A DNA stretch of 32,783 nucleotides. It comes from Chloroflexales bacterium. Its GTDB lineage: Bacteria; Chloroflexota; Chloroflexia; Chloroflexales; Chloroflexaceae. Where the stretch lies: the NCBI GenBank assembly GCA_022360155.1, contig JAKSDJ010000741.1:1-32783 (forward strand), in the 5' to 3' direction. Of the stretch, positions 2,702-11,423 are shown in pieces. The notes beneath the pieces were generated by a model that was not told where the DNA came from, made no database searches, and was given only the letters and a program-made list of their open reading frames with translations. Position 1 is the first letter of the stretch, and each line of letters begins with the position of its first letter. A program made the position numbers and the translations under genes.

Positions 2702-2787
2702 AGTGTATGGCTGAACGACTATATCGAACCGAATCGATTGTGCTAGTGTATGGCTGAACGACTATATCGAACCGAATCGATTGTGCT
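2702..2787 (+). repeat. Exact 43-bp tandem duplication over the recO start
   Basis: Bases 2702-2744 are repeated exactly at 2745-2787, head to tail. Each copy holds the first 12 codons and part of the thirteenth of recO with its ATG (2707 and 2750). Since 43 is not a multiple of three, the first ATG runs out of frame: it reads 16 codons (the recO N-terminus followed by LVYG) and stops at TGA 2755-2757, just inside the second copy. The functional recO start is therefore the second ATG. Confidence 0.95.
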
Positions 2788-3499
2788 GCGGCGGAGCGAC
2801 TTTAGCGAGTCCGACCGTCTGATCTTGCTGGCAACGCCGCTGGGCAAACGGCGGGTCGTTGCGAAAGGCGTGCGCAAAACCATGAGCCGTCTCGCAGGAC
2901 ATGTCGAGTTGTTCACCCATAACACCATGTTGCTCGCGCTCGGTCGCAATCTGGATATTATCACTCAGAGTCAGACGATCCACGGGTTCAGCTCGCTCCG
3001 CTCCGACTTGGCGCGTATAAGCTGCGCCTACTATGTAGCCGACGTGTATGACCAGTTCACCCAGGAAGAAGAAGAGAATCGTCCGCTATTCGAATTGCTC
3101 GTGCAGGTTTTCGATGGCTTGAACACCAGGAATAATACCGATCTCGCGCTGCGTTGGTATGAGCTACACATACTTCACCAAACAGGGTATCGTCCGCAGT
3201 TGCACTACTGCGCCGTATGCCAGGAAGCGCTGACCGAAGAAGCGAATCGCTTCAGCCCCACAATAGGCGGAGTATTATGCCCGCGTGATGCACAAGCCGA
3301 CCGCACGGCCTTGCCAATGGGAAATGCATGCTTTCGGCTGCTCCGTTATTTGCAGAGCCAGCCGCTTGAAATTGTCGACACGATGACGATCTCGGCAACG
3401 GTGCGCGCTGAAGCCGAGCGCTTGTTGCGGACCTATGTCCGGTATATCATCGAGCGCGATCTTAAATCGGTGACGTTCCTGAACTCACTCCGAACGTAA
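2750..3499 (+). CDS. recO: DNA repair protein RecO
   Basis: Protein of 249 residues, the normal length for RecO, which loads RecA with RecR in RecF-pathway recombinational repair and anneals SSB-coated DNA. The N-terminal OB-fold signature is clear (residues 1-80: ESIVLRRSDFSESDRL, then RRVVAKGVRKTMSR), followed by the helical domain. The zinc-finger region has Cys154, Cys157 and Cys177; the usual fourth Cys position (180) is Asp, so zinc may be absent or bound differently. The start lies in the second copy of the 43-bp duplication; its former upstream signals now precede the first copy, so initiation may depend on coupling to the 16-codon decoy frame, whose TGA sits just after this ATG. No SD is visible immediately upstream. 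Confidence 0.9.
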   Translation: MAERLYRTESIVLRRSDFSESDRLILLATPLGKRRVVAKGVRKTMSRLAGHVELFTHNTMLLALGRNLDIITQSQTIHGFSSLRSDLARISCAYYVADVYDQFTQEEEENRPLFELLVQVFDGLNTRNNTDLALRWYELHILHQTGYRPQLHYCAVCQEALTEEANRFSPTIGGVLCPRDAQADRTALPMGNACFRLLRYLQSQPLEIVDTMTISATVRAEAERLLRTYVRYIIERDLKSVTFLNSLRT

Positions 3500-3599: not shown

Positions 3600-4295
3600 A
3601 TGGCCTATATCGACGAGCTACTTGGGCGCGGCGAACAGATTCTCTATGTTGCACGACAGCACGTTTTTGTGTTAGTGAGTCATATTCTCACCGAGTTAAC
3701 ACTGATCGCAGTGCTGGTAGCTGCTGGTGTCGCTTCGGACATCGCGTTTCGCACCAACACAACAATCCTGTTCGGCGCTATGACAGCCAGTTCATTCATT
3801 CTACTCATCTGTGCAGTGATCAGCGTGATCGTGTTGATCAGCGGGTTTCTCGACTTTCTGCGCTGGAACACCGAACAATATATCATCACCGACCGGCGCG
3901 TCCTCCAGATCCGCGGCGTTCTGAACAAGTCGGTGATCGACTCATCACTCGAGAAGATCAACGACGTCGGGCTGCGCCAAAGCATCCTTGGGCGGATGTT
4001 CAACTTTGGCACCATCGAGATCTTGACTGCTTCCGGGGACGAAGGCGTCAATGTGATGGACCGCATCACCGCGCCTTTGGAATTCAAGCGCGCAATGCTG
4101 GAAGCCAAACACAATTATGATCGAGGTTATGGTTATTTGCCATCACAAACCGCCTATGAGTCAACCGAATACGCCAACTCCGCCCACGGCGACATTCAGC
4201 GCACCCTCGAAGAACTTGCCGCACTGCGCGACCGCGGGATTCTTTCTACCGACGAGTTCGAGGCGAAGAAGCGTGAAATATTGAGTCGAATATAG
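3600..4295 (+). CDS. Membrane protein with bacterial PH-like (YdbS-type) domain and C-terminal SHOCT motif
   Basis: Protein of 231 residues. Two hydrophobic helices (about 28-48 and 60-86) are followed by a bPH2/DUF304 domain (about 88-170) with the hallmark YIITDRRVLQIRGVLNK and a following LEKINDV..RQSILGR segment. Residues 197-230 form a SHOCT motif (LEELAALRDRGILSTDEFE), a short oligomerisation or peptide-binding helix pair often at protein ends. The domain sits on the cytosolic membrane face; its ligand is not known for this family. AAGGAG at 3587-3592, eight bases before the ATG, supports this start. It stands 100 bases after recO and 84 before the phosphorylase, probably without functional linkage. 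Confidence 0.8.
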   Translation: MAYIDELLGRGEQILYVARQHVFVLVSHILTELTLIAVLVAAGVASDIAFRTNTTILFGAMTASSFILLICAVISVIVLISGFLDFLRWNTEQYIITDRRVLQIRGVLNKSVIDSSLEKINDVGLRQSILGRMFNFGTIEILTASGDEGVNVMDRITAPLEFKRAMLEAKHNYDRGYGYLPSQTAYESTEYANSAHGDIQRTLEELAALRDRGILSTDEFEAKKREILSRI

Positions 4296-4379: not shown

Positions 4380-5210
4380 ATGTATGAACAGATAGAAGCC
4401 GCTCGTGCGATCATTGCCGCTCGTACGAGCCTGACACCGTGTGTCGGCCTCATCCTTGGTTCGGGATTGAGTGCTCTGGCTGATGACTTGCAAGAACCCA
4501 CGATCATCCCCTACGCTGAAATCCCTCATTTCTTCACTCCAACTATCCCAGGACATCGCGGTGAATTGGCCATTGGCCGACTCGGCGGTCAGCCGGTAGC
4601 AGTACTGCGTGGTCGCTTCCATTTCTATGAAGGCTATAGCATGCAGCAAATCACCTTTCCAGTGCGTGTGCTGCGCGCCATTGGTTGTATCGCGCTCATC
4701 GTCACCAACGCGGCGGGCGGGATGAATCCCGATTGGCAGGTCGGCGACATCATGCGTATTGCCGACCAGATTTTTCTGCCAGGGATGGCCGGCCATCACC
4801 CGCTGCGCGGTGAACACGACGAGCGCTTTGGTCCACGGTTTCCGGCAATGGTTGGCGCTTTTGACAATGACCTGACACCCATCGCCCACGCTGTCGCCTC
4901 AGCGCAGGGTCTAACGCTGCGTGAAGGCGTTTACATTATGTTGAGCGGACCGCATTTCGAGAGCGCTGCTGAGTTGCGTATGCTTCGCTCGTGGGGGGGT
5001 GACGCCGTGGGGATGTCCACCGCGCCGGAAATCATTGTCGCGGTGCAAAGCGGGATGCAAACGTTGGGCTTCTCCCTCATTACCAACCTGGCCCTGCCCG
5101 ACGGCTCACCGGCCAACCATGCCGAAGTGCTCGCCGCCGGAGAAGCGGCTAAACCCAAATTCGCTGCGCTGATCCGGGGAATTCTGGAAAAGATGAACAC
5201 GGAGGGATAG
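4380..5210 (+). CDS. Purine nucleoside phosphorylase (trimeric type)
   Basis: Protein of 276 residues in the trimeric PNP/MTAP family, which splits inosine or guanosine with phosphate into base and (deoxy)ribose 1-phosphate for purine salvage. Visible motifs: GSGLS (27-31, phosphate site), PGHRG with His59, RGRFHFYEG (78-86, phosphate and ribose contacts), TNAAGGM (109-115), GPHFESAAE with Glu194 at the purine-binding position, VGMSTAPE around Met212, and Asn236 in ITNLALP at the base-recognising Asn position. Asn there favours 6-oxopurines over adenosine. No SD precedes the ATG, and the start is the only good one near the conserved N-terminus. The dual-protease gene begins 46 bases after the stop. 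Usual symbols would be punA or deoD; I leave the symbol open. Confidence 0.9.
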   Translation: MYEQIEAARAIIAARTSLTPCVGLILGSGLSALADDLQEPTIIPYAEIPHFFTPTIPGHRGELAIGRLGGQPVAVLRGRFHFYEGYSMQQITFPVRVLRAIGCIALIVTNAAGGMNPDWQVGDIMRIADQIFLPGMAGHHPLRGEHDERFGPRFPAMVGAFDNDLTPIAHAVASAQGLTLREGVYIMLSGPHFESAAELRMLRSWGGDAVGMSTAPEIIVAVQSGMQTLGFSLITNLALPDGSPANHAEVLAAGEAAKPKFAALIRGILEKMNTEG

Positions 5211-5256: not shown

Positions 5257-8148
5257 ATGCCTGAACTAACACTGCTCGAAACCATCGCTGAGTTTGACGA
5301 GGCGACGCGAAAAACGCTTGCCGAGTATTGGATCGCCAGCGCTGAAGAGTTTGTCACGGTTGCGCGTTCCAGCAACCGTCAGTTTGGCAATGGCCTAACA
5401 GCTTTAGGTAAGATCCTGAACCTAGAACCCAATCAGGTTGAGGCATTGCTCCAGGCTGCCGATCGGGTCATACCGCCGCATTTTTCCTTTGCCATTGAAG
5501 CTGAATTGGAAGTTGGCACGGGCGCGATCTTCGAAGGCATGGAGATTGTCGAACCGGTCTCCTTTGATGTGCCAACCGAAGCGTTACCGCCCGAGATCTG
5601 GTTGGGCACCGACCTGCCGCCGCCGCACCACCAGGGCAAGCGCAACACCTGTGTCGCCTTCGCGGTCATCGCGATGTATCAACACGCCAGCGGCGACACC
5701 ACCGACCTTTCCGAACAATTCCTCTATTGGGCTTGTAAAGAACGCGACGGCATTCGCGGCGATGTGGGCACGCTTCCTGACCTAGCGCTACGTTTGCTTG
5801 CTGAAACGGGCGTCTGCGTCGAATCGACCTGGCCCTATCATCCTGATTTGAACCCAAGCAATGCCGGACAGGGGCCGCCACCTGCCGGTGCAGAAGAAGA
5901 GGCGCAGCAACGGCGTATCACCGGCTTCAGTGTGTTACCCGCGAAGGAAGTGCGTGCGCTGCAGGCTGCGCTGGCGCAGGGCCAAACCGTGTTGTTTGGC
6001 CTGCCAATCGATGAGCATTGGACCAACACCTACCAGGCGCGTACATTGGGGCGAGTACGCAAGCCGCTGCCCGGTGAGGGAAATATGGGCGGGCATGCGA
6101 TGTGCGCCGTAGGCTATCGCGATGATGCAAGCGTTCCAGGGGGCGGGTATTTCATTGTGCGCAATAGCTGGGGCTCGGATTGGGGCAAGGAAAACCCGGA
6201 TGGGCCGGGTTACGCCCATGTCCCCTACCGGTTGGTCTTCGAGAGCAATTTAGTCGCCCTGGTCATCGATGGGATTGTGCAAAGCGACCAGCCAGCGCTT
6301 GGCGACACAAAGCAAGCCAGTAGTGCAAAACCAACTGTGGGTGAATCATCTACGGCAGAGACTGAGCAGACCGCCGCGTTCGATCCTCAAAGTGGAATAG
6401 ATGTCCAGGCGATCTATGCTGAAGCGCTGGTGATCCAGCAACGACTCAACGTTTTAGTGGAGCAACTGGCGGTCTTAGCTCAACGCCAGCCGCCGCCAGC
6501 CGATCCCAGTACACAACCTCAAGGCGTTCCTGAGAGCGCGTCCACTGATGGCGCCACATCCTATGCCGCTGGCGCGTCGCCCCCATCGGGATCACTCATC
6601 CTGATTGCCGAGCATGATTCGAGCCAGCGCGTTGATCTGCCGCCCAACGGCATTAACGGCATCACCGGCCAACCGCTCGTCGCGATCGATGCCGCCGCTG
6701 CTGAACACTTGGCGCACCAGACTCCCGATCCGCCTGAGCTACAACGCCTGCATCAGGCCAAGCAGAATCAAGGCAAGGATCATCTTGGTGTGGTTGCCGG
6801 CTTCGATGTAGACAGCATCGAGGATTGCCGCTGGGCAGTCGTGGTCAACGCCAATGACGATACAGCCATTTTGAAGGCAATAACCCCGCTCATCCAGCAT
6901 CGCAGCGCCCAGCAAGGCATTACCTTGCCGCCACTGGAGTTCCGCGACGGTGAGCGCTGCGGCGAGTGGCTACAACGTATTGCACCCGACACACACCTGC
7001 CCTGGCAGCAGCGCCCGCCGGTGTTGCTCTACCAGCCCGGCGAGGACTGGCTGGCCCGCCACAATGTCTCACAAGGGCCGGTAGACCCGTCGCGCGGCGT
7101 GCCGTTCTACCTGATGCTACTGGGGCGGCCTGGGCCGCTGACCAAGGGCGATACCGCTTTTATCCCTTTTAGCTTTCAGTACCAACTCGACATGTTCTGG
7201 GGCGTCGGGCGGCTGTGCTTCAACGATATGTCAGGTCAGCACAACTTGGCAGCATATGAAGCCTATGCCGAGCAAGTCGCGGCCTTCGAGCAAGCCGCCC
7301 CCATGTTACGCAAGCACGTAGTCTATTTTGGCGCCCAACATGACCTGGATCGCGCCACAGCGCTCAGCGCGCAGGAGCTGGTGACGCCGCTAGCGCAGGG
7401 CGTCGCCGGCCAAAAGCCCGTCGCAGAGCGATTTGGCTACACCCAACAACTCTTCTTGGCTAGCGACGCGACACGCGCGAATTTGGAGCAGATTCTGCGG
7501 GGCGGCGATGCAGAACGAGCGCCGGCCCTCCTCTTCACGGCAACCCACGGAATCGGCCTCCCCCCCGACGACCCGCGGTTGCTGGCGCAGCAGGGTGCGC
7601 TCGTCTGTCAGGATTGGACCGGTTTTGGCAGCATTAAACGCGAACACTGGTTCGCTGCTGAAGATGTGCCGGCGCAGGCGCGCGTTCTGGGCCTAATTGC
7701 CGTTTGTTTCGCGTGTTACGGTGCGGGTTGCCCACACGACGATCAGTTTCTCTTTGAGCACAATAAAGCCCGCCCCATTATCGCCCCTTACCCCTTCATC
7801 GCCCAACTGCCGCAACAACTGCTGGCCCGCGGGGCGCTGGCCGTGCTGGGTCATATTGATCGAGCCTGGAACTACTCCTTTAACACACCCAACACACCAG
7901 CCCAATCACAAGCGTTCGCGGATGTGATTGGGCGGATCCTCACTGGCAAGCGTTTGGGGTTCGCCACCGACCAGTTCAATATGCGTCAAGGAGCGCTCGC
8001 CACACTGCTGGCTGATACCCTGGAGAGTGTTGAATTCGGTAAGCGGGGGGCGCCATCAACCCTTGGCCCCATCTGGATTGCGCGGAATGATGCACGTAAC
8101 TATGCATTGCTTGGCGATCCTGCTGTTCGCCTTCCCTTTAACAGCTAA
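5257..8148 (+). CDS. Dual cysteine protease: papain-like (C1) domain fused to caspase/CHAT-like (clan CD) domain
   Basis: Protein of 963 residues without signal peptide or membrane helix, so probably cytosolic. Residues 1-72 are a small helical domain resembling a helix-hairpin-helix/SAM-like module. Residues 108-340 are a papain-fold peptidase: Cys132 in RNTCVAF, His280 in GGHAMCAVGY and Asn303 in RNSWGSDWG form the triad. Residues 341-445 are a Pro/Ala/Gln-rich linker with one amphipathic helix (about 381-410). After a domain of unclear fold (446-690), residues 750-963 resemble CHAT/gingipain clan CD peptidases: TATHG with His764, a hydrophobic strand ending FACYG with Cys820, RGALAVLGHIDRAW, and C-terminal YALLGDPAVRLP. 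Both catalytic sets look intact. It follows the phosphorylase by 46 bases with no SD. A regulated proteolysis, cell-death or defence role is inference from CHAT and caspase homologues. Domain boundaries are by eye. Confidence 0.8.
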   Translation: MPELTLLETIAEFDEATRKTLAEYWIASAEEFVTVARSSNRQFGNGLTALGKILNLEPNQVEALLQAADRVIPPHFSFAIEAELEVGTGAIFEGMEIVEPVSFDVPTEALPPEIWLGTDLPPPHHQGKRNTCVAFAVIAMYQHASGDTTDLSEQFLYWACKERDGIRGDVGTLPDLALRLLAETGVCVESTWPYHPDLNPSNAGQGPPPAGAEEEAQQRRITGFSVLPAKEVRALQAALAQGQTVLFGLPIDEHWTNTYQARTLGRVRKPLPGEGNMGGHAMCAVGYRDDASVPGGGYFIVRNSWGSDWGKENPDGPGYAHVPYRLVFESNLVALVIDGIVQSDQPALGDTKQASSAKPTVGESSTAETEQTAAFDPQSGIDVQAIYAEALVIQQRLNVLVEQLAVLAQRQPPPADPSTQPQGVPESASTDGATSYAAGASPPSGSLILIAEHDSSQRVDLPPNGINGITGQPLVAIDAAAAEHLAHQTPDPPELQRLHQAKQNQGKDHLGVVAGFDVDSIEDCRWAVVVNANDDTAILKAITPLIQHRSAQQGITLPPLEFRDGERCGEWLQRIAPDTHLPWQQRPPVLLYQPGEDWLARHNVSQGPVDPSRGVPFYLMLLGRPGPLTKGDTAFIPFSFQYQLDMFWGVGRLCFNDMSGQHNLAAYEAYAEQVAAFEQAAPMLRKHVVYFGAQHDLDRATALSAQELVTPLAQGVAGQKPVAERFGYTQQLFLASDATRANLEQILRGGDAERAPALLFTATHGIGLPPDDPRLLAQQGALVCQDWTGFGSIKREHWFAAEDVPAQARVLGLIAVCFACYGAGCPHDDQFLFEHNKARPIIAPYPFIAQLPQQLLARGALAVLGHIDRAWNYSFNTPNTPAQSQAFADVIGRILTGKRLGFATDQFNMRQGALATLLADTLESVEFGKRGAPSTLGPIWIARNDARNYALLGDPAVRLPFNS

Positions 8149-8779: not shown

Positions 8780-9973
8780 ATGCAGTTTCAACTCCATCAC
8801 CAAGTCGTTATTGTTGGAGGCGGCGCCGCTGGCATCAGCGTCGCTGCTCGCGTGCATCGAGCGCTCAAAAGCGCTGACATTGCAATCATCGAACCCTCGC
8901 GGAAGCACTACTATCAACCCCTTTGGACACTCGTCGGCGGCGGAGTTGTACCGAAAGAAGTCAGCGAACGCGACGAAGCTTCGCTCATTCCCGAAGGCGT
9001 TAAATGGCTCCACGATGCAGTAACAGAGTTTTGCCCACAGGACAACTGTGTTCTCACCCACGACGGCAAACGCGTGAGTTACGACTTCCTTGTCGTTGCA
9101 CCAGGCATTCAGATCGACTGGGATAAGATACCAGGGCTACGCGACAGCCTCGGCAAAGATGGCGTGTGCAGCAACTATGCGTACCAGTACGTCGATACGA
9201 CCTGGGAAGCGATTCGTACGTTCAAAGGCGGTACGGCCATCTTCACTCAGCCTAGCACGCCGATCAAGTGCGGCGGCGCCCCGCAAAAGATCGCCTACCT
9301 AGCCGAAGATTATTTCTGCCAATCGAGCGTGCGCAATCGGACGAACGTTATGTTCATTACTGGCACGGCAACCATTTTCACAGCTCCATATTATGCGCCT
9401 GCGCTCATGAAAGTTGTTGAGCGCAAAGGCATCCAGCCGTGTTTCAAGCATGACCTGATCGAGATCATACCGGCAAGCAAAGAAGCTGTTTTCAAAAATC
9501 TCGATACGGGCGAACTCATTGTACTCAAGTATGACATGATCCACGTAACGCCGCCAATGAGCGCGCCTGATTTTGTCAAGCAGAGCCCTCTGGCTGATCC
9601 AGCGGGATGGGTCGATGTCGACAAATGGACGCTTCAGCACAAGCGCTACTCCAACATCTTCGGCCTGGGCGACGCCAGCAACCTGCCAACCTCGAAGACT
9701 GGAGCCGCCGTTCGCAAGCAAGCAGTCACTGTCGCACAGAATCTGGGTGCAGCCCTGAAGGACAATCCCTTGAATGCGCGCTACAATGGCTATACCTCTT
9801 GTCCACTCATCACCGGCTACAAAAGCTTGATTATGGCCGAGTTCGATTATGACCTGAAGCCCAAAGAAACCTTTCCTTTTGATCAATCAAAGGAGCGGTA
9901 CAGTATGTATCTGCTGAAGCGATACGGCTTACCGCAGATCTATTGGCATGGCATGTTAAAGGGTCTTGTATAG
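8780..9973 (+). CDS. Sulfide:quinone oxidoreductase, type II (SQOR-like)
   Basis: Protein of 397 residues. A membrane-associated flavoprotein that oxidises sulfide to persulfide/polysulfide and passes electrons to quinone. The FAD-binding start GGGAAG (13-18) is intact. HYYQPLWTLVGGG (43-55) is typical of the type II (mitochondrial-like) group. The redox cysteine pair is present: Cys164 in PIKCGGAPQK and Cys341 in SCPLITGY; a further Cys130 lies in GVCSNYAY. GLGDAS (295-300) is the second FAD site, and the hydrophobic C-terminus may dock to the membrane. AAGGAGG at 8763-8769 lies ten bases before the ATG. The next gene, a persulfide dioxygenase-rhodanese fusion 34 bases downstream, would consume the persulfide product; together they form a sulfide detoxification or oxidation operon. 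Type II SQRs usually serve detoxification, not autotrophic growth. Confidence 0.9.
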   Translation: MQFQLHHQVVIVGGGAAGISVAARVHRALKSADIAIIEPSRKHYYQPLWTLVGGGVVPKEVSERDEASLIPEGVKWLHDAVTEFCPQDNCVLTHDGKRVSYDFLVVAPGIQIDWDKIPGLRDSLGKDGVCSNYAYQYVDTTWEAIRTFKGGTAIFTQPSTPIKCGGAPQKIAYLAEDYFCQSSVRNRTNVMFITGTATIFTAPYYAPALMKVVERKGIQPCFKHDLIEIIPASKEAVFKNLDTGELIVLKYDMIHVTPPMSAPDFVKQSPLADPAGWVDVDKWTLQHKRYSNIFGLGDASNLPTSKTGAAVRKQAVTVAQNLGAALKDNPLNARYNGYTSCPLITGYKSLIMAEFDYDLKPKETFPFDQSKERYSMYLLKRYGLPQIYWHGMLKGLV

Positions 9974-10007
9974 GCCCACTGTCCATATACATCTTAGGAG
10001 GACTGTA

Positions 10008-11423
10008 ATGCTCTTACGTTATTTCTATGACCAGAAGTTAGCCCATGCATCGTACCTGGTTGGTTGCCAGGCTACCGGCGAAGCGCTTGTAATGGACCCC
10101 GGCCGCGATATCGACCCATATGTAGAAGTCGCAGAGAGCCAGGGGATGCGCATTGTGGCGGTCACCGAAACCCATATTCACGCCGATCTCCTCTCCGGCG
10201 CACGCGAGCTGGCCGAGCGCACGGGTGCGCAGCTCTTTTTAAGCGATGAAGGAGACGCAGACTGGAAATACCAATACCACCATAACTATGACCATCATTT
10301 GGTTAAAGACGGCGATATCTTCAAGATTGGCAATATCAAGTTTAAGGTGCTCCATACGCCAGGCCATACGCCAGAGCATATCTCCTTCATTATCACCGAC
10401 ACGGCTGGTGCTAACAAACCGATGGGCATTTTCACGGGCGACTTTGTTTTTGTCGGTGATGTCGGTCGTCCCGATCTGCTCGAAGCGGCAGCAGGCATTA
10501 AGGGCACTGCCGAACCCGGTGCGCGGCGGATGTTTCACTCATTACAACGCTTCAAGGCATTGCCGGACTATATGCAGGTCTGGCCGGCCCACGGCGCCGG
10601 CAGCGCTTGTGGCAAGGCGCTCGGCGCTATCCCCTCCAGCACGGTTGGCTATGAAAAGCTGTTCAATTGGGCCATGAACTACACCGATGAAGACGCCTTT
10701 GTGCAGGCTCTGCTCTCCGGGCAGCCAGAGCCGCCCCGCTATTTCGCGATGATGAAGAAGCTAAACAAAGAGGGGCCAAAGGTTTTGCACAGCGCGCCAA
10801 TGCCCGAGCAGCTCCCTTTTACCCATCTGGCTGATCTCCTGGCGCAAGGGGCGATGTTGGTAGACACCCGTTCAACCGACGCCTTTGCTGCTGCGCATAT
10901 CCCTGGCACGATCAACATTCCTTTCGACAACTCGTTCACGACATGGTCTGGATGGCTGCTCAATTATGAGACGCCCTACTACCTGATCGTCGATGCACAT
11001 CTCCTTACTGATGTCGTCCGAGCGCTGCGCTCCATCGGTCTGGATAATGTTCTCGGGTACAGTGAGACATCGGCGATTAGCGCTTGGCCCAAAAGTGGTC
11101 GTCACCTACAGAGTTACGAGGTTGTAACGCCCAAACAGGCTGCCGATAAGGTCTTGAATGGTGAGATGTTCGTTCTGGATGTGCGTAATTCTTCCGAATG
11201 GGCAGAGGGTCACTTGCCGGGCGCCAACCATATTATGCTTGGCTATCTATCGGCGCGGTTCACCGAAGTGCCGACCGACCGACCTATCTTGGTGCAGTGC
11301 CGATCGGGCGGACGTTCGGCGATCGGTGCAAGTCTGTTGCAATCCAAAGGTGTGCCTCAGGTCATCAACCTGCTGGGCGGGTTTCGTGAATGGGCGGCAG
11401 AGGGGCTGCCTATCGAGCGGTGA
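10008..11423 (+). CDS. Persulfide dioxygenase (MBL fold) fused to two rhodanese domains
   Basis: Protein of 471 residues. Residues 1-250 are a metallo-beta-lactamase-fold persulfide dioxygenase (ETHE1/CstB-like), which oxidises glutathione or similar persulfides to sulfite. Mono-iron ligands are visible: His56 and His58 in THIHADLLSG, His120 in HTPGH and Asp145 in FTGDF; the last His of the HxHxDH motif is Leu61, compatible with a one-iron site. Residues 270-365 are a rhodanese domain with no cysteine at the active-site loop (LIVDAHLL), presumably structural. Residues 370-471 are a second rhodanese with active-site Cys431 in QCRSGGRS. AGGAGG at 9996-10001 lies six bases before this ATG, which sets the start over an earlier in-frame one at 9966. 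It is co-transcribed with SQR and ends before a hairpin terminator. Confidence 0.9.
   Translation: MLLRYFYDQKLAHASYLVGCQATGEALVMDPGRDIDPYVEVAESQGMRIVAVTETHIHADLLSGARELAERTGAQLFLSDEGDADWKYQYHHNYDHHLVKDGDIFKIGNIKFKVLHTPGHTPEHISFIITDTAGANKPMGIFTGDFVFVGDVGRPDLLEAAAGIKGTAEPGARRMFHSLQRFKALPDYMQVWPAHGAGSACGKALGAIPSSTVGYEKLFNWAMNYTDEDAFVQALLSGQPEPPRYFAMMKKLNKEGPKVLHSAPMPEQLPFTHLADLLAQGAMLVDTRSTDAFAAAHIPGTINIPFDNSFTTWSGWLLNYETPYYLIVDAHLLTDVVRALRSIGLDNVLGYSETSAISAWPKSGRHLQSYEVVTPKQAADKVLNGEMFVLDVRNSSEWAEGHLPGANHIMLGYLSARFTEVPTDRPILVQCRSGGRSAIGASLLQSKGVPQVINLLGGFREWAAEGLPIER

Follow-up and report, generated by a model that had tools for sequence, protein, structure and literature searches.

The window studied here is a stretch of 32,783 nucleotides from a member of the Chloroflexaceae (Chloroflexales), and at its centre of interest lies one gene, predicted to encode two intact cysteine-protease domains of unrelated families in a single chain. 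The genes and features discussed below, all on the + strand, are the following.

2750-3499, +: recO, first gene of a conserved upstream trio (PF02565/PF11967; synteny), context only
3600-4295, +: bacterial PH (bPH_2) and SHOCT protein (Pfam; synteny), context only
4380-5210, +: purine-nucleoside phosphorylase (PNP) gene punA (NF006054, E 1.9e-102; synteny), context only
5257-8148, +: fused protease gene, 963 aa, stop codon included (ORF and full-length homologues in 27 same-family genomes)
5257-5481, +: N-terminal four-helix domain, aa 1-75, putatively of the helix-hairpin-helix (HhH) type seen in the RAD51 NTD, RadA, NusA and alpha-CTD (model, Foldseek)
5581-6264, +: papain-like (C1) domain, aa 109-336, with Gln126, Cys132, His280 and Asn303 (Pfam PF00112, PDB 3ois, residues in 25/25)
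6265-6645, +: Pro/Ala/Ser-rich linker, aa 337-463 (consensus frequency 0.22-0.35 outside the coil)
6397-6492, +: predicted conserved heptad coiled coil inside the linker, aa 381-412 (consensus 0.53, heptad pattern)
6634-8145, +: C25-type clan CD half, aa 460-963, with His764, Cys820 and a C-terminal LLGDPAVRLP strand (AlphaFold2, Foldseek, paralogues)

Re-checking the ORF and the alignment returned exactly the ORF, coordinates and residue numbers of the original prediction, which had also placed the protein in the cytosol; in agreement with this, neither a signal peptide (sequence) nor an I29 propeptide (Pfam) was apparent in the fused protein. Elsewhere in the window, a gene for a metallo-beta-lactamase fold protein with a C-terminal rhodanese domain (9966-11423) lies directly 3' of a sulfide:quinone-reductase-like gene (8780-9973), and the two are likely a sulfur-oxidation pair.

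The papain half (aa 123-312) matches Pfam Peptidase_C1 (PF00112) at E 2.3e-15 and 57.7 bits, well above the curated cut-off of 20.7, and among PDB sequences the closest solved chain to aa 108-330 is that of a bacterial cysteine protease, 3ois (E 2.9e-16). In the alignment of 25 full-length homologues Q126, C132, H280 and N303 are invariant and in order in all, within the motifs Gln126-Cys132, His280 and Asn303-Ser-Trp-Gly. H764 and C820 of the other half are equally constant, so that none of the 25 fusions departs from the five catalytic residues or from the oxyanion Gln of the papain half. The proposed triad of Cys132, His280 and Asn303 is thus borne out. The fold and the Gln-Cys-His-Asn active site are common to the bacterial C1A papain-like proteases, from which the window protein differs in being headed by an HhH-type domain and in carrying a second protease after the papain half.

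For the C half, the window protein itself gave no significant Pfam match: Peptidase_C25 (PF01364) reached only E 0.1 and 12.2 bits against a cut-off of 23, and the best E-value among the aligned orthologues was 1.2e-4. A paralogue in the same genome, 37% identical to the window protein over aa 461-960, matches Peptidase_C25 at E 2.9e-11, above the curated cut-off, which further relatives of the C half likewise exceed; we therefore group this half with family C25 and not with CHAT proper. A search of PDB sequences with the C-half profile gave no matches, and Pfam CHAT (PF12770) had none in the window protein or the aligned orthologues. The AlphaFold2 model of aa 431-963, built with 35 homologues (pLDDT 86.2, pTM 0.89), has as its top Foldseek matches in the PDB Csx29/TPR-CHAT (E 9e-5, prob 1.0) and separase (E 1e-4); the TM-scores by query length are low (0.24-0.31), and the likeness is thus at the level of the fold only. 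CHAT proper was rejected for this half in favour of C25, which fits better by paralogue sequence, though the fold is nearest to CHAT/separase.

The motifs His764-Gly765 and Ala819-Cys820 are conserved; of 18 C25-only relatives, 16 retain the dyad and two differ at one or both residues. The clan CD assignment of the second half accordingly stood up: the paralogues are C25 proteases, the model matches Csx29 and separase, and neither a fold outside clan CD nor a fusion lacking His764 or Cys820 was found. With the gingipain family C25 the C half has the His/Cys dyad in common, and its plasmid relatives carry the PGAP annotation "C25 family cysteine peptidase"; the window protein differs from that family in its score below the cut-off, in its fusion to papain and in having no secretion-linked domains that we could see. 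With Csx29 (TPR-CHAT, Craspase) and separase, both of them allosterically controlled proteases, it shares the caspase-like fold and the dyad; here the differences are an identity of ~10%, no TPR array, no CRISPR partner and no Pfam CHAT match.

The small helical domain at the head of the protein is likewise supported by its model, which shows four helices and a pLDDT that stays near or above 90 through aa 1-70. Foldseek with aa 1-112 returned RAD51/RadA NTDs, NusA and the RNA polymerase alpha-CTD with probabilities up to 0.99 and E-values of only 0.33, matches that are coherent as a set and individually not significant. From this model the domain is tentatively read as HhH type rather than as a papain propeptide, an assignment that adds to the original prediction; the same HhH-type domain also heads papain proteins in other phyla. 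An I29-type propeptide is typical of Peptidase C1 and is not obligatory. It seems very improbable that the domain is a propeptide-type inhibitor, the papain half a plain zymogen that activates itself, and the C25 half a passenger: the helical domain does stand directly before the protease, where papain-family propeptides are found, but inhibitor_I29 has no Pfam match in the window protein, the N-domain fold search gave no procathepsin match, and the C25 residues are conserved as strongly as the papain ones. A death-fold identity for the N domain also found no support in the fold search.

Between the halves lies the Pro-rich linker foreseen in the original prediction, rich in Pro, Ala, Ser, Thr, Gly and Gln and varying from 95 to 207 aa across homologues. 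New is the predicted coiled coil inside it (about aa 381-412), which in the homologue alignment has a consensus frequency of 0.53 without gaps, and 7-10 of its 11 a/d positions are hydrophobic in the homologues tested. C25-only paralogues, among them those beside the Oscillochloris fusion (loci L036-L038), have the heptad helix ahead of their C25 domain, and C25 proteins of STAND loci keep it too. Its sequence pattern makes it a candidate for joining like or unlike chains into oligomers. Oscillochloris sp. ZM17-4 has three C25-only paralogues in tandem immediately downstream of its fusion (L038, G032:C172, 4139-10360, - strand); a heptad helix is clear in at least one of them, and L036 and L037 have similar single C25-only copies beside the fusion.

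The same architecture was found as a single ORF in 29 of the 41 genomes of the window's family of green filamentous bacteria; of these 29, 27 have one match over most or all of the length and two (G007 and G010) have both parts in one frame; the named genera with matches are Chloroflexus, Oscillochloris, Chloroploca and Viridilinea. In several of the remaining genomes the sequence is fragmentary or the two halves are encoded by abutting genes. In one such split (L034) the papain and C25 genes abut with a clean ATGA overlap, and another (L035, around 3770) is similar but adjoins a run of ten A, and the break there may be a sequencing error, a true split or a slippage site. Neither the other families of the phylum nor a pattern-limited scan of genome contigs gave a further fusion. 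An assembly artefact is ruled out by the single-ORF fusion in many independent genomes, and the fusion is not traced to phages or plasmids, whose matches are to single halves only. Pairwise distances of the N half and the C half are correlated (r = 0.94) with equal means (0.40 and 0.40), and distances of the fusion track those of PNP and RecO (r 0.82-0.90), which argues that the fusion is inherited vertically as a unit. As first proposed, one polypeptide thus has two cysteine-protease domains that differ in fold, both intact by sequence and kept together family-wide.

This pattern bears on the main rival to the reading that we prefer, namely a housekeeping tandem protease whose halves act in turn on the same cellular substrates or peptides, e.g. 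in protein quality control, neither activating the other nor having anything to do with death or defence. We regard it as possible, if rather doubtful. A vertical core gene at a fixed locus, active sites that are always intact and the lack of any adjoining NTPase or effector all favour it; the closest C25 paralogues, however, sit in STAND, CHAT and alpha/beta-hydrolase loci, a variable linker with a conserved coil resembles regulated assembly, and the fusion evolves faster than its neighbours (mean distance 0.43 vs 0.23-0.33).

The gene itself starts 46 bp after the end of punA, and recO, the PH-SHOCT gene and punA lie upstream of the fusion in about 20 loci. The trio is also present elsewhere in the order with no fusion behind it (L181-L190), so that the fusion gene was most likely inserted behind a pre-existing cluster; the neighbours, being ancestral, give no clue to function, and a functional coupling to recO or PNP is weakened for the same reason. 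The conserved neighbourhood of the fusion (recO, PH-SHOCT and PNP only) holds no NTPase, hydrolase or effector gene, and the PADLOC 2023 models of known anti-phage systems gave no match. Most defence genes are not vertically inherited at a fixed core locus.

Csx29 is controlled by RNA binding, and on that model the HhH domain could bind DNA or RNA and control the papain half, the position near recO reflecting a role in DNA damage. The fold matches of the N domain (RAD51/RadA NTD, NusA, alpha-CTD), the order-wide recO locus ahead of the fusion gene and one HhH-papain relative fused to a DEAD helicase speak for such gating, but HhH-like domains also make protein contacts, the N-domain E-values are not significant and the recO-PH-punA order exists without the fusion; we judge it quite unlikely. 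The helicase fusion is encoded at L083 (1-3288) in a Myxococcales MAG.

Relatives with the HhH and papain domains and no C25 half were found in Verrucomicrobia, Phycisphaerae, Myxococcales and other Chloroflexota. Outside the family, two of about nine such loci adjoin C14 caspase-FGE genes and a third adjoins a kinase-FGE gene; with caspase neighbours at so few loci, this is a lead and not proof. One relative (L084) has a weak CARDB-like match. The coil-bearing C25-only relatives, at 50% identity, adjoin genes for WD40, TPR-CHAT, NB-ARC and alpha/beta-hydrolase proteins, the WD40 neighbour having a STAND-like N-terminus by eye. The alpha/beta hydrolase is present in only 5 of 61 genomes and adjoins the C25 gene in three of those; on a Nostoc plasmid an alpha/beta hydrolase is followed by C25 and then by an nSTAND1-WD40 protein annotated as CHAT, and on a Sinorhizobium plasmid one adjoins a C25 gene.

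Kaur et al. 2020 (PMC7159879), whose text mentions papain just once, describe the pairing of caspase-superfamily proteases with alpha/beta hydrolases in conflict systems predicted for multicellular bacteria. The C25 paralogues of the C half sit in STAND/VMAP-type loci of this kind, whereas genes for an NTPase, a hydrolase or an effector are absent beside the fusion. Two further loci deserve mention in their own right. At L202 (1194-16445) an operon-like array groups several clan CD proteases, with a divergent C25, an alpha/beta hydrolase, a C11 clostripain-like protease, HSP70, a beta-propeller and a C25 protein of 1786 aa that has a weak C-terminal CHAT match. At L043 (4646-7180) a divergent relative joins a C25 protease to a C-terminal carbon-nitrogen hydrolase (nitrilase) domain, and the neighbouring gene is metalloprotease-like and includes a PPC domain.

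The role in proteolytic death or defence cascades suggested in the original prediction was only partly upheld. The STAND, NB-ARC, WD40, CHAT and alpha/beta-hydrolase surroundings of the C25-only relatives, and the caspase-FGE genes beside some HhH-papain relatives, are circumstantial evidence for it; the fusion, in contrast, has no NTPase or effector neighbours and is inherited vertically at one core position. The descent of the C half suggests death or conflict modules, the fixed core position domestication.

The reading that we put forward, at a probability of roughly 0.4, is a coiled-coil-assembled module of two proteases under control of proximity, in which one half trims or activates the other and which derives from conflict systems. 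The protein would be a cytosolic double protease of an HhH-type domain, a C1 protease, a flexible coil-bearing linker and a C25-type protease of caspase fold. Clan CD proteases often require a proximity or allosteric trigger, and assembly is therefore proposed to switch on one half. We infer that the coiled coil would gather copies of the protein, plus C25-only partners with the same helix where these are present; that a ligand or a nucleic acid would gate this assembly through the HhH domain, and that assembly would turn on one half; that the active half would cut the exposed linker or the partner half; and that an amplified burst of cleavage would then hit cellular targets. The module may have been derived from C25 parts of STAND-type conflict or cell-death systems and is now a fixed core gene of Chloroflexaceae, whose role may lie in regulated proteolysis during stress or death of the filament cells and not in that of a mobile defence island.

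Counting for the two-protease module are the invariant catalytic residues, the halves evolving in step, the abutting split genes, the shared heptad helix, the conflict-type loci of C25-only relatives, the C14-FGE neighbours and the matches to Csx29 and separase. Counting against it are ancestral neighbours without clues, the HhH E-value and the fact that only 3 of about 9 loci have FGE neighbours; a housekeeping role, too, would agree with vertical inheritance and a broad occurrence within the family. A stronger version, a death switch of filamentous phototrophs in which coil assembly, including neighbouring C25-only partners, lets the caspase-fold and papain halves activate each other, is in our opinion unlikely.

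Both protease families are known, and what appears to be novel is their combination and not a new kind of enzyme; in agreement with the original prediction, which knew of no characterised protein joining C1 and clan CD, none of the papers searched describes a C1-C25 protein. In animal cell-death protease cascades separate proteins meet on a scaffold, and by its sequence the conserved fusion suggests a cascade that is built in. Chloroflexus is culturable and the domains are clear enough for tests with point mutants. If the halves cross-activate, this bacterial core gene, with two unrelated cysteine proteases joined round a coiled coil, would be a compact model of the process, and the fusion would connect the caspase-fold conflict modules of bacteria with a role that has been domesticated and is passed on vertically in filamentous bacteria that are multicellular.
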